From a virus: DNA of 25,638 nt. The position numbers and the translations under genes were made by a program. Where the stretch lies: IMG/VR virus record IMGVR_UViG_3300023181_000078, positions 1 to 25,638 of that record; one strand, 5' to 3'. Shown here piece by piece: positions 9,905-13,451 of this stretch. The first letter of the stretch is position 1, and every line of letters starts with the position of its first letter. The notes under the pieces are model-generated. The model made no database searches. It was given only the letters and a program-made list of their open reading frames with translations, and was not told the DNA's origin.

Positions 9905-10855
9905 TTACGCAGGGTTTTCAACGCACTCGACGATGAGGACGCCTTTTTCTTCCGTGCGGGTTCCGCCGAAAGCGAACTGGCCGTTCATCAGAATGGCAAA
10001 GTTGAGCATTTCTTCCACCCACATGCGCATGGTCCAGTTCTTCGCGAAGCCGAACACGACTTTCGATTTGAGCCAGAATGGCACTTGGCGGATGATGTCG
10101 GAACCTTCCAAGCGGGTAGGCGCTTGTTCGGTGTGGAGGATGCGAACACCCATGAAGGTATCGGCTTCGAAGTTGCGGAGTTTTTCCAGCGCGAAGATGG
10201 AATCCAACCGGTTGGTGAGGCGGGCGTCTTGCACCATGTCCTCGATCTGAGCGGCGGAAAGAGCAGCGCAGAGCTGATCGGTTCCGTTGGTCAGACCTTG
10301 GCCGTAGGCGTAATCGGCGTAGAACTTCCGGCGAGCACGGGCGAACTTGTCAAGGGTCATGCCCCGCTTGGTCGTGGTGCCGTCGTAGTTGAAGTTCCAA
10401 GGGATGATCCGATCGGTACCGAGCGTGATCTCCTGGGTTCCGACTTCACCAGCGTAGTTCGGACCGGTGATGGCTTGAATGATTCCAAGCTCAGCGGTGC
10501 GGTGGCCGAGATTTGCCATTTCGGTCATAACGGGAACGACCGGCAGCGACTGAACACCAAGCTTGATGTCATCGTATTGGTCGAAGCCTTCGGTTTTCTC
10601 GAATGCTTTCCAACCAATGACGCGGCGGTCATAGTTTGGCTCCTCGATTTGCAAACGCTGAAAGCGCTGCGTGATCGCGTGCATGTTATCGAGCGGGTTG
10701 ATCTGATCGATGAAGGTCAGTTTACCCGTGAGAGTTTTCGGAGTAACAAACGGAAGAAGCGCGTTCTCAGTTTGCTGGATTTTGGCGCTCCACATGGTAG
10801 GGAGCACGTTATTGTAGTGATTGACGAGTGCGTCAGGAGTGGTGGCGGTAGCCAT
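9905..10855 (-). CDS. Major capsid protein (HK97-like fold, phage podovirus type)
   Basis: 316 residues, the usual size for this class of capsid protein. The N-terminus (ALVNHYNNVLPTMWSAKIQQTENALLPFV), the DRRVIGWKAFEKTEGFDQYDD segment, the KFARARRKFYADYAYGQGLTNGTDQ helix-strand part and the KNWTMRMWVEEMLNFAILMNGQFAFGG end are typical of capsid proteins in T7/phiKMV-like and related podoviruses. It follows the scaffold in gene order but is separated from it by a cassette on the other strand, and has its own promoter with a leader of about 170 bases. No SD: the ATG follows AACATTCATCATT. Confidence 0.85.
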   Translation of the reverse strand: MATATTPDALVNHYNNVLPTMWSAKIQQTENALLPFVTPKTLTGKLTFIDQINPLDNMHAITQRFQRLQIEEPNYDRRVIGWKAFEKTEGFDQYDDIKLGVQSLPVVPVMTEMANLGHRTAELGIIQAITGPNYAGEVGTQEITLGTDRIIPWNFNYDGTTTKRGMTLDKFARARRKFYADYAYGQGLTNGTDQLCAALSAAQIEDMVQDARLTNRLDSIFALEKLRNFEADTFMGVRILHTEQAPTRLEGSDIIRQVPFWLKSKVVFGFAKNWTMRMWVEEMLNFAILMNGQFAFGGTRTEEKGVLIVECVENPA

Positions 10856-11033
10856 AATGATGAATGTTTTCGGTTACGGAGAATGCAGCGGACATAATCC
10901 TCTGCGGACTTGGTTCCGGCTTCCGAGTGTCCAGAAAAACTGGGTTCATCACACCAATTCAGGAATTCCTCCTGCGGATGTAGTAGGCTCTTGGGGTGCT
11001 TTCGCGTGTCCCGTGCTCTTCTACGTGGTGAGG

Positions 11034-11061
11034 ATTAGCATTTCAGGCGAGTAATTGTCAA
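11034..11061 (-). promoter_or_regulatory. Sigma70-type promoter for the capsid gene
   Basis: Reading the minus strand: a perfect -35 TTGACA (11061-11056), a 16-base spacer, then GCTAAT (11039-11034), four of six bases to TATAAT and preceded by a TG. The start would be near 11027, giving a leader of about 170 bases to the capsid ATG. A separate promoter is needed because the upstream scaffold gene ends in a terminator and an opposing cassette intervenes. Confidence 0.6.
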
Positions 11062-11084
11062 ACTTTTCTTAAATGATTTTCCTA

Positions 11085-11112
11085 TTGACGATCTGCGCTG
11101 GATTGGTAGGTT
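11085..11112 (+). promoter_or_regulatory. Candidate promoter of the plus-strand cassette
   Basis: TTGACG (11085-11090), 16-base spacer, TAGGTT (11107-11112). The -35 is good; the -10 keeps only the first two and the last conserved bases. Transcription would start near 11119, just ahead of the attenuator-like element. Weak on its own; supported by the need for a promoter for the cassette. Confidence 0.35.
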
Positions 11113-11128
11113 TCGGCATCGCATTCGA

Positions 11129-11219
11129 CTAGCCCTCGACCGATAACAACACTTTCTTTCGAAAAACGAAAGGGGCGGACTTGCAAAGGAGGGCTAGACC
11201 TTTGCGAGCCGCCCTTTTT
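11129..11219 (+). terminator. Attenuator-like element / terminator of a ~100-nt leader RNA
   Basis: The terminator stem is GGGCGG-(A)-CTTGCAAAGG (11173-11189) pairing with CCTTTGCGAG-CCGCCC (11199-11214), 16 pairs with one bulged A and one G-U, followed by TTTTTCTTTCTCT. The nine-base loop contains GGGCTAG. An upstream CTAGCCCTC (11129-11137) is perfectly complementary to GAGGGCTAG (11189-11197), and a small CTTTCG-AAAAA-CGAAAG hairpin (11156-11172) lies between. The upstream strand can therefore compete for the terminator loop, as antiterminator or pseudoknot. No gene lies before it on this strand. Confidence 0.65.
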
Positions 11220-11405
11220 CTTTCTCTAGATTTAGGACAAGGCACTGTTCGCTGCCGAGCACAGACCAAAAACAAGGCTGTAGTCCCAGGAGTTAAATTA
11301 GCGCAGGACTCAAAACAAGGCGCTGAGGGTCACCCTACAATCCCCACGGATTCATTTCCGGTTGGGGAGAGGAGGGGTTTTGATAAAAAGGAAAGGAACT
11401 AATCA

Positions 11406-11744
11406 ATGATCTATGTAATGAGAGCAGGTAACACCGAGTTCGTTAAGATCGGATTCACCAATAACAAAATCACCCTAGAAGGAAGGGTCTGCGCTCTATC
11501 CACGGGATCGTTTTCGGATTTATCCATTGAAGCTACGATGCCTGGATCAAAGAAAAAGGAAAGCTGCCTACATGCATTCTGCGTGAAAAGGCATGTCCGA
11601 GGCGAATGGTTCAGGCTGACGAAATCCGAGGTTAGCCGCATGATTTACAAATACCATCACTGGTCACCGATGAAGTCTGGGATCAAAAAAGTTCCTCGAA
11701 TCAACCACCTAAAAGCAGGATCAAAAATCACTTACCTAGATTAG
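11406..11744 (+). CDS. T5orf172 / MUG113-type GIY-YIG-like protein
   Basis: 112 residues. The pattern fits the T5orf172/MUG113 branch of the GIY-YIG nuclease superfamily: IYVMRAG at the start with Tyr3, VKIGFT with Lys14-Gly16 in place of YIG, Arg27 in GRVCALSTG, then Glu52 and His56 in ESCLHAFC, and the closing RGEWFRLT. Tyr, Arg and Glu of the expected active site are present, so it may cut DNA, but members of this branch are mostly untested. The C-terminal 35 residues are basic. It is first in a cassette opposing all neighbours and has an AAAGGA ribosome site eight bases before the ATG, unlike most genes here. Could be a mobile-type nuclease or an accessory gene. Confidence 0.75.
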   Translation: MIYVMRAGNTEFVKIGFTNNKITLEGRVCALSTGSFSDLSIEATMPGSKKKESCLHAFCVKRHVRGEWFRLTKSEVSRMIYKYHHWSPMKSGIKKVPRINHLKAGSKITYLD

Positions 11745-11799: not shown

Positions 11800-12168
11800 A
11801 TGAAAACAGCAATCTACATCGAAGACGGAATCACCCAAGTGGTGCTGACGCCAGAAACCGAGTTTGAGAAACAAGCTCTAAAGCAAATCGGATCATCCGA
11901 TGTCTCGGCTCAAATCTTCTCAGGGACATTCTACGAATGCATGGGTGGATGGACTAGGCAATCTAGGAATTACGGAAACTCCGATCAGCAATCCATCATT
12001 CTGCGCGTTGGTAAAAATCCCGAGCCGGAGATTCCGAAAGACCCCGGCTACGTCGCCGTCACCCACTCGATCGAACGGGACCAATACGCCATTGACGCGG
12101 TTGAGAAGGCGCTTGCGGCTGGGCGTCTCGTGCCACGTGAAGATTTAACCGGGGGCGACGAGAAATGA
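11800..12168 (+). CDS. Conserved phage protein of unknown function
   Basis: 122 residues. The opening (MKTAIYIEDGITQVVLTPET) and the FSGTFYECMGGWTRQ...NSDQQSIILRV region resemble a small family found in many phage genomes with no assigned role. The C-terminus is acidic/helical (IERDQYAIDAVEKALAAGRLVPRED). The start is preceded by ATTAACCAAC, the non-SD lead-in used by the other phage genes. The end overlaps the next small gene (ATGA). It sits in the plus-strand cassette after the GIY-YIG-like gene. Confidence 0.65.
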   Translation: MKTAIYIEDGITQVVLTPETEFEKQALKQIGSSDVSAQIFSGTFYECMGGWTRQSRNYGNSDQQSIILRVGKNPEPEIPKDPGYVAVTHSIERDQYAIDAVEKALAAGRLVPREDLTGGDEK

Positions 12169-12275
12169 CTGAAAAACAATTCCGCATCGTGATGAAAGTA
12201 GTTGGCGTGATGGTGATGCTGGTTGCCGCCTTCGCTGTTTTCGCCTGGTATAAAATAATCGAGAGCATGCCTTGA
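12165..12275 (+). CDS. 36-residue single-pass membrane peptide
   Basis: ATG at 12165 overlaps the stop of the preceding gene (ATGA). The product begins MTEKQFRIVMK and has one hydrophobic segment (VVGVMVMLVAAFAVFAWYKI), ending IESMP. Below usual length cut-offs, but the tight overlap, clean membrane segment and following terminator support a real gene. Function unknown; single-pass phage peptides of this size include superinfection-exclusion and membrane-targeted inhibitors, which would suit an accessory cassette (speculative). Confidence 0.55.
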   Translation: MTEKQFRIVMKVVGVMVMLVAAFAVFAWYKIIESMP

Positions 12276-12370: not shown

Positions 12371-12407
12371 AACCCGCTAGGAAGAGCAATCCTGCTAGCG
12401 GGTTTTT
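12371..12407 (+). terminator. Terminator of the plus-strand cassette
   Basis: AACCCGCTAG (12371-12380) and CTAGCGGGTT (12395-12404) form a perfect 10-bp stem with a 14-base loop, followed by further T residues. It lies about 95 bases past the membrane-peptide gene. The minus-strand copy is followed by TTAACTTTTC, so it may work in both directions. Confidence 0.85.
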
Positions 12408-12420
12408 CATGCCAATCAAC

Positions 12421-12454
12421 AGAAAACCCCGCTCCAGACGAATCCAGAGCGGGG
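12421..12454 (-). terminator. Terminator after the scaffold gene
   Basis: Read on the minus strand, CCCCGCTC (12454-12447) and GAGCGGGG (12434-12427) pair over a 12-base loop, followed by TTTTCT. It lies 20 bases after the scaffold stop and faces the plus-strand terminator 20 bases away, so the two transcription units are insulated. Confidence 0.8.
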
Positions 12455-12473
12455 CAGGGATAGTTAGGGGAAA

Positions 12474-13451
12474 TTAGTAAGCGCCTCGCGACTCCTTCTC
12501 AAGCTGAATGAAGCGATTCAGCTCCACATCGTGATTGGGATTCGTGTGATCGAGAACCGGGTGTTTCGGGTTGGTCGCCATGGCTTCCTTGATCGATTGG
12601 AACTTGGACGCCGAGCTTTGAAACACGGAAGATGCGCCGTTGTGGATCATCGTTTCCTTAGGGATGCGCTGACCCAGCGAGTGCAAGAGCTTTGTGTAGG
12701 CCGTGGTGCCGATAAACCGGTCCATGTCCTTCTGTTCTGACTCGCTGAGATTCGCGCCCACAAAGGCCACATCGTGCAGCTTCTGCGCGTCTCCAAGGAA
12801 TGCCTGTGCTTTATCGCCCCAGCCTTCGTTGAGAGCTTTGATATTGGCCGACTGATCCGCGCCGGTTTGAGCTTCCATCTTGCCCATCAGCTCGCCGACA
12901 ACCTTACCGTGGACTTCCGCCAGCTTCTCGAACTGAGCGGGGGTGATGTTCGCTTCATGCGCGGCCTTGGCGTAGGCACTTTTCAACGCAGGGTCTTTGA
13001 TGCCCATCGTTTCAAGAGTCGTATCGGTGGCGGAGCTGAACTTGTATTCCGCTGAATCGGCTGGGATACCGTTGACCTTGCGATAAGTGGCGATGTCCTT
13101 TTCCGTGGCTTCCGCTCCAGGGGCGAGAATGCCCTTGAATTTAACGGCCTCGGAATAGCCCTTGGCGGTTTCCTTGGCGAATTCCTCGGCCGTGACCGGC
13201 TTGGAGAAGTGGGCAAGGGTGGATTCGTATTGCTTCAGGTCTTCGTTTTCGGAAACTAGCTTTGCAAAATACGGGCTTTCGATCGCTTGGGTGTCAGCGG
13301 GACCGGGTGGAATTACTACTGCCGACTCAGCGCCAGCGACAGGAGTAACAGGGGCTGCGCCAGCACCGCCCAACAAAGAGCCGGATGGGATTGACGCAAC
13401 AGGTTCCACAACCTCGGTCACGGGAGCTTCAATGACTGCGGCTTCACTCAC
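12474..13451 (-). CDS. Capsid scaffolding protein
   Basis: 325 residues, with the layout of podovirus scaffolds. There is an Ala/Pro/Val-rich disordered N-terminus (1-60), an acidic helical middle with ESPYFAKLVSENEDLKQY, a segment EKDIATYRKVNGIPADSAEYKF typical of these proteins, long Ala/Lys/Glu helices (TPAQFEKLAEVHGKVVGEL), and a basic-helical C-terminus that would bind the capsid subunit. It starts with GTG, overlapping the previous TGA as GTGA. It sits downstream of the portal as expected, but the capsid gene is displaced 1.6 kb further by the inserted plus-strand cassette. Confidence 0.8.
   Translation of the reverse strand: MSEAAVIEAPVTEVVEPVASIPSGSLLGGAGAAPVTPVAGAESAVVIPPGPADTQAIESPYFAKLVSENEDLKQYESTLAHFSKPVTAEEFAKETAKGYSEAVKFKGILAPGAEATEKDIATYRKVNGIPADSAEYKFSSATDTTLETMGIKDPALKSAYAKAAHEANITPAQFEKLAEVHGKVVGELMGKMEAQTGADQSANIKALNEGWGDKAQAFLGDAQKLHDVAFVGANLSESEQKDMDRFIGTTAYTKLLHSLGQRIPKETMIHNGASSVFQSSASKFQSIKEAMATNPKHPVLDHTNPNHDVELNRFIQLEKESRGAY

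Follow-up and report, generated by a model that had tools for sequence, protein, structure and literature searches.

A putative translation-sensitive attenuator ahead of a plus-strand gene cassette among the late genes of a podovirus-like phage

The window analyzed here, a virus record of 25,638 bases, carries podovirus-like late genes on its minus strand, namely, those for the terminase, the portal, a scaffold-position gene, the major capsid protein, tail tube proteins, a holin, and an endolysin. Between the scaffold-position gene and the capsid gene, a strong intrinsic terminator (11169-11219) is found on the plus strand. An initial, sequence-only reading had seen no gene before this terminator on its strand. 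Which RNA, then, would end at this site, and could its folding decide whether transcription continues into the genes downstream?

The plus-strand cassette and its setting

Downstream of the terminator, a cassette of three plus-strand genes occupies the gap between the scaffold-position gene and the capsid gene (Table 1). The protein encoded by the first, which starts about 185 nt after the terminator, is GIY-YIG-like, and both of its Pfam matches (PF13455 and PF10544) exceed the Pfam cut-off. The second product belongs to a family that is widespread in phages, with its N-terminal 60 to 80 residues conserved in many of them; relatives were found at 49 IMG/VR loci and in two bacterial genomes, mostly covering the N-terminal part only. 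At the DNA level, the first 60 to 90 nt of this ORF (11800-11870, plus strand) showed about 73 to 87% identity in many otherwise unrelated phage contigs. The third gene encodes a membrane peptide (MTEKQFRIVMKVVGVMVMLVAAFAVFAWYKIIESMP). These genes make up a real unit on the plus strand, closed by a terminator of their own (AACCCGCTAG..CTAGCGGGTTTTT). This terminator (12371-12409) stands face to face with a minus-strand one (12426-12455), and the two part the scaffold-position gene from the cassette. In two distant relatives, the podovirus MW202510 and Pelagibacter phage Baldr, only about 200 bases lie between the counterparts of the scaffold-position and capsid genes. The plus-strand cassette therefore looks like an insertion between the scaffold and capsid genes.

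The nearest relative of the capsid protein in the phage collection was 23.5% identical, and the relatives of TerL were at most 36% identical. By single-protein pattern scans, which detect close relatives only, in sets that may omit records very near the window, no relatives of the capsid protein were found in IMG/VR or GTDB genomes; IMG/VR likewise yielded none for the GIY-YIG protein and the long tail protein. The 550-nt gap DNA had no match in phages or in the 141 fetched loci, and no homologue of the element itself was found in the phage collection, in IMG/VR pattern scans, or in GTDB genomes. A CTAGCCCTC-gap-GAGGGCTAG pattern in two IMG/VR contigs was taken as chance, neither contig having the terminator architecture or a related protein. 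No Rfam family matched the window above the gathering threshold, and the low-threshold matches were uninformative.

Table 1. Features of the scaffold/capsid gap and its flanking genes (positions in the window)
Feature	Position	Strand	Remarks
Major capsid protein gene	9905-10855	minus	
Promoter-like TTGACA-16-GCTAAT upstream of the capsid gene	11034-11061	minus	consensus match only, window rank 23
19-codon ORF, candidate leader peptide or tiny membrane peptide	11073-11132	plus	MIFLLTICAGLVGFGIAFD; stop TAG 11130-11132
Segment A, putative antiterminator strand	11115-11137	plus	overlaps the 3' end of the ORF (final five codons and stop)
Small hairpin CTTTCG-AAAAA-CGAAAG	11156-11172	plus	3' half overlaps the terminator foot
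Segment B, 5' arm of the terminator	11167-11188	plus	
Segment C, comprising the loop (GAGGGCTAG, 11189-11197), the 3' arm, and the first T-tract bases	11189-11219	plus	predicted to pair with A or B
T tract TTTTTCTTTCTCT of the plus-strand terminator	11215-11227	plus	T-tract score 4.76
Cassette gene 1, 112-aa T5orf172/MUG113 (GIY-YIG-like) protein	11406-11744	plus	PF13455 1.4e-6, PF10544 2.5e-5
Cassette gene 2, 122-aa protein	11800-12168	plus	phrog_29681 8.9e-13; 49 IMG/VR loci
Cassette gene 3, 36-aa membrane peptide	12165-12275	plus	MTEKQFRIVMKVVGVMVMLVAAFAVFAWYKIIESMP
Terminator closing the cassette	12371-12409	plus	AACCCGCTAG..CTAGCGGGTTTTT
Terminator immediately downstream of the scaffold-position gene, facing the cassette terminator	12426-12455	minus	
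Scaffold-position gene	12474-13451	minus	

The terminator hairpin and the 19-codon ORF before it

The sequence-only reading had described a hairpin of 16 pairs followed by a T tract, and such a hairpin is indeed present. Its stem, GGGCGGACTTGCAAAGG..CCTTTGCGAGCCGCCC, forms 16 pairs at 11173-11214 around a 9-nt loop, is followed by TTTTTCTTTCT, and is extended by AAAG/CTTT-type pairs to 11219. The hairpin can be read on both strands, and it is predicted to be a better terminator on the plus strand, with a T-tract score of 4.76 versus 2.04 for the minus-strand reading (by a provisional score formula).

An open frame on the same strand had been overlooked. An ORF of 19 codons (11073-11132) ends about 35 nt before the hairpin begins, and an in-frame TAA lies immediately 5' of its ATG. 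The GRAVY value of the predicted peptide is 2.11, the sole value above 1.5 among the 158 ATG ORFs of 15 to 50 codons in the window. An ORF this hydrophobic arose in 0.05% of simulated 550-nt regions of the composition of the gap (P of about 0.0005 per region). The peptide contains no run of regulatory codons. The initial proposal had been an attenuator or a small RNA; the non-coding half of it is weakened because a significantly hydrophobic ORF lies ahead of the hairpin, and the attenuator half is supported in silico by the competing pairings described below. Past its TAG, the frame of the ORF stays open for another 89 codons (11133-11402, plus strand) and ends 4 bases before the start of the GIY-YIG gene. 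This read-through frame was rejected as a gene: it had no PHROGs match, and a frame stayed open that long by chance in 3% of simulations.

The start sites in the window suggest a host with Shine-Dalgarno-independent initiation. When the first start of each listed ORF was used, a Shine-Dalgarno-like motif within 20 nt of the start was absent in 34 of the 36 predicted genes and present in 2. The 19-codon ORF has no Shine-Dalgarno sequence either, which neither supports nor excludes its translation because almost all of the other genes share this feature. For the same reason, an AAGGAGG motif in the hairpin, noted earlier, finds no support as a ribosome site. Several gene starts in the window come after AACCAAC(C) or TTAA. 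Using a sigma-70-type consensus, which may not be that of the host, we found no convincing plus-strand promoter match upstream of 11073, no strong match between the terminator and the cassette, and no good minus-strand site over the ORF. The promoter-like site on the minus strand lies about 180 nt upstream of the capsid start and would leave the capsid mRNA with a long 5' leader.

Pairing of segment C with segment A or segment B

The loop of the hairpin had been reported to be perfectly complementary to nine bases upstream, and the match is exact: CTAGCCCTC (11129-11137) and GAGGGCTAG (11189-11197) are the only two exact copies within the window. The complementarity is longer than nine bases. 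The 23-nt segment A (11115-11137; GGC-A-TCGCA-TTCGA-CTAGCCCTC), within which the stop codon of the ORF falls, can pair with 11189-11210 of segment C (GAGGGCTAG-ACCTT-TGCGA-GCC) through 17 pairs at a predicted -30.5 kcal/mol, with one bulge and one 5x5 internal loop as the only interruptions. When the 80 nt upstream were dinucleotide-shuffled, about 0.07% of the shuffles contained a loop match of at least nine bases; none of 2,534 other window segments did. The energy of the A:C duplex was reached by none of 1,000 upstream shuffles (mean, -16.5; standard deviation, 2.7) and, again, by none of the 2,534 other 80-nt segments. As a rough yardstick, we used 434 hairpin-plus-T-tract sites from the window and the fetched phage loci, many of which are probably parts of coding sequence and no genuine terminators; the 9-base loop match was the longest among them (the next best was 7), and the z-score of the A:C duplex ranked 5th. 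With the 3' arm cut short by 4 nt at its end, the element ranked 1st of 147 good terminators in upstream pairing, and 12% of these terminators likewise exceeded 0.5 upstream pairing when incomplete. The complementarity is well above chance, yet some measures do not set it apart from all other sites, and part of the statistics was picked after seeing the sequence.

The outcome of the competition between the A:C duplex and the terminator was computed by folding RNAs with different starts and ends. In RNAs ending at 11197 to 11212, the probability of A:C was about 1.0. With starts at 11060 to 11112 and ends at about 11214 to 11216, the two forms were near balance, and an RNA starting at 11020 favored the terminator already at end point 11214. 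The balance tipped from A:C to the terminator between 11212 and 11219. At RNA end 11222, the probability of the terminator was about 0.89 to 0.995, depending on the RNA start, and at full length without a ribosome, the terminator was favored about 9 to 1 or more. Because roughly the last 8 bases of the RNA are concealed by the polymerase (PMC1183508), the decision would fall where both forms are near balance. In silico, the mutually exclusive pairing is real, and the two forms are nearly isoenergetic. The small hairpin that had been noticed between the 9-mer and the terminator loop was found as well, overlapping the terminator foot, and was predicted to form beside either A:C or the upper part of the terminator. 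A pseudoknot combining the A:loop pairing with the full terminator was considered and judged sterically impossible, since almost no nucleotides would be left to cross the 9-pair helix. Judged from the order of the segments, such a switch would be impossible on the minus strand because the hairpin comes first there and its complement only afterwards.

Since the stop codon lies inside segment A, a ribosome that has reached the end of the ORF would make A unavailable for pairing, leaving termination as the outcome. When 11116-11146 were masked, as by a ribosome at the stop codon, A:C was abolished and the probability of the terminator was 1.00 at every length tested. When only 11073-11104 were masked, the probability of A:C was 0.999 at RNA end 11212 and 0.41 at 11214.

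The ORF, the terminator, and the competing pairings with their balance, as found in silico, are best read as an attenuator that responds to translation and precedes the inserted cassette or, at the minimum, as a short, terminated mini-mRNA in that position. We infer plus-strand transcription, translation of the ORF, control by the ribosome, and the cassette genes as the target. An RNA would start upstream of 11073, carry the hydrophobic ORF, and end at the terminator (11169-11219) unless A (11115-11137) captures C (11189-11210). Free of ribosomes, A would be able to pair with the loop of C from the moment the loop is made, about 15 to 20 nt before the 3' arm is complete, and the A:C duplex would hold the RNA in a readthrough form that allows some transcription into the GIY-YIG cassette. 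With a ribosome at or near the stop TAG (11130-11132), A would be covered, B:C would form, and transcription would stop. The cassette would thus be off while the ORF is translated and would open when translation is slow or fails. We put the probability that the element opens a small plus-strand transcription unit in which translation of the ORF would shut off the cassette at roughly 0.38. Several points speak against an attenuator: besides the missing homologue, the lack of a convincing upstream promoter match, the pairing of A with the loop and 3' arm, the missing regulatory codons, and the preference for the terminator at full length, the local hairpin may kinetically outpace A:C, and the distance of about 185 nt between the terminator and the GIY-YIG gene leaves room for a separate cassette promoter. 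The fuller version, in which a phage without Shine-Dalgarno sequences uses a translated 19-codon leader and a switch of non-trp geometry so that the GIY-YIG-like cassette is expressed only when translation falters, is rather doubtful.

Alternatives and comparison with known systems

The main alternative to an attenuator is a tiny stand-alone gene whose product is the 19-aa hydrophobic peptide and whose terminator is the hairpin; the A:C pairing would then be incidental, arising, for example, when a short stretch at the hairpin was duplicated in inverted orientation, and the cassette would be transcribed from its own promoter. The hydrophobicity of the ORF, a stop-to-hairpin spacing that is normal for a gene with its terminator, and a second small membrane peptide in the same cassette (12165-12275) are consistent with this explanation, and the missing Shine-Dalgarno sequence at 11073 is no objection to it, with 34 of the 36 genes in the same situation. 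Small membrane proteins usually carry positive charges, however, and this peptide has none. A stand-alone gene also leaves unexplained the small difference in stability between A:C and the terminator and the overlap of A:C with the stop codon. We regard it as possible, if somewhat improbable.

The second alternative is an ordinary insulating terminator that would serve either strand where the minus-strand capsid gene and the plus-strand cassette diverge, with the 19-codon ORF as a coincidence. Such a role would fit a hairpin that is readable on both strands, the terminator-like hairpin that MW202510 has between its scaffold-position and capsid genes, and the 12% of 147 phage terminators that pair substantially upstream when incomplete. 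On the minus strand, however, the terminator at 12455-12426 already fills this position, the minus-strand T tract of the present hairpin is weak, and the ORF and the A:C duplex are each improbable individually. We regard an insulator as unlikely.

A third candidate, a regulatory RNA of about 100 nt that codes for no protein, would end at the terminator and act in trans or as an antisense to the capsid leader; we regard it as very unlikely. The promoter-like TTGACG-16-TAGGTT at 11085-11112 would start one near 11118, but this weak match ranks only 38th in the window, a start there would drop the ORF and the 5' end of A, and no Rfam family matched at threshold. Most improbable of all is a type I toxin-like unit, in which an antisense RNA and the A:C fold within the mRNA would together silence the hydrophobic peptide: the length and hydrophobicity of the peptide are within the range of such toxins, and a very short hydrophobic peptide on a short structured RNA with long-range folding resembles the hok, aapA1, and ibs mRNAs, but here the pairing hides the end of the ORF and spares its start codon, no antisense RNA is evident, no good antisense promoter-like site over the ORF was found with the sigma-70-type consensus (the minus-strand site at 11061-11034 points away), and no homologue was found.

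We next compared the putative attenuator with known systems. The trp leader has two forms that differ little in stability, and its antiterminator strand is hidden when a ribosome stands at the stop codon (PMC1183508). The element resembles trp/his-type attenuators in that an intrinsic terminator lies upstream of the putative regulated genes on the same strand, a competing antiterminator of comparable stability is predicted, and a short leader ORF has its stop codon placed so that, in the masking simulation, a ribosome masks the antiterminator strand. It differs from the trp leader (II:III versus III:IV) in that A takes the loop and the 3' arm (11189-11210), whereas classical antiterminators take the 5' arm. 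Unlike trp/his leaders, it has no run of regulatory codons, its downstream genes are GIY-YIG-like and not biosynthetic, it is located in a phage, and its leader ORF has no Shine-Dalgarno sequence. Because of the capture of the loop and 3' arm and the lack of regulatory codons, it is not a member of the trp class as defined. The locus is also like phage moron cassettes, in which small genes sit between two late genes, run in the opposite direction, and have a terminator of their own, but a leader ORF with an alternative pairing is not part of the moron description.

In bacteria, attenuators that respond to translation are a familiar feature of biosynthetic and resistance operons. No clear phage case was found in a limited full-text search of the openly accessible literature. 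An "orphan" terminator can flag a peptide gene under the usual size cut-off. If the attenuator reading is true, the phage could sense the translation state of its host and switch a small cassette among its late genes.
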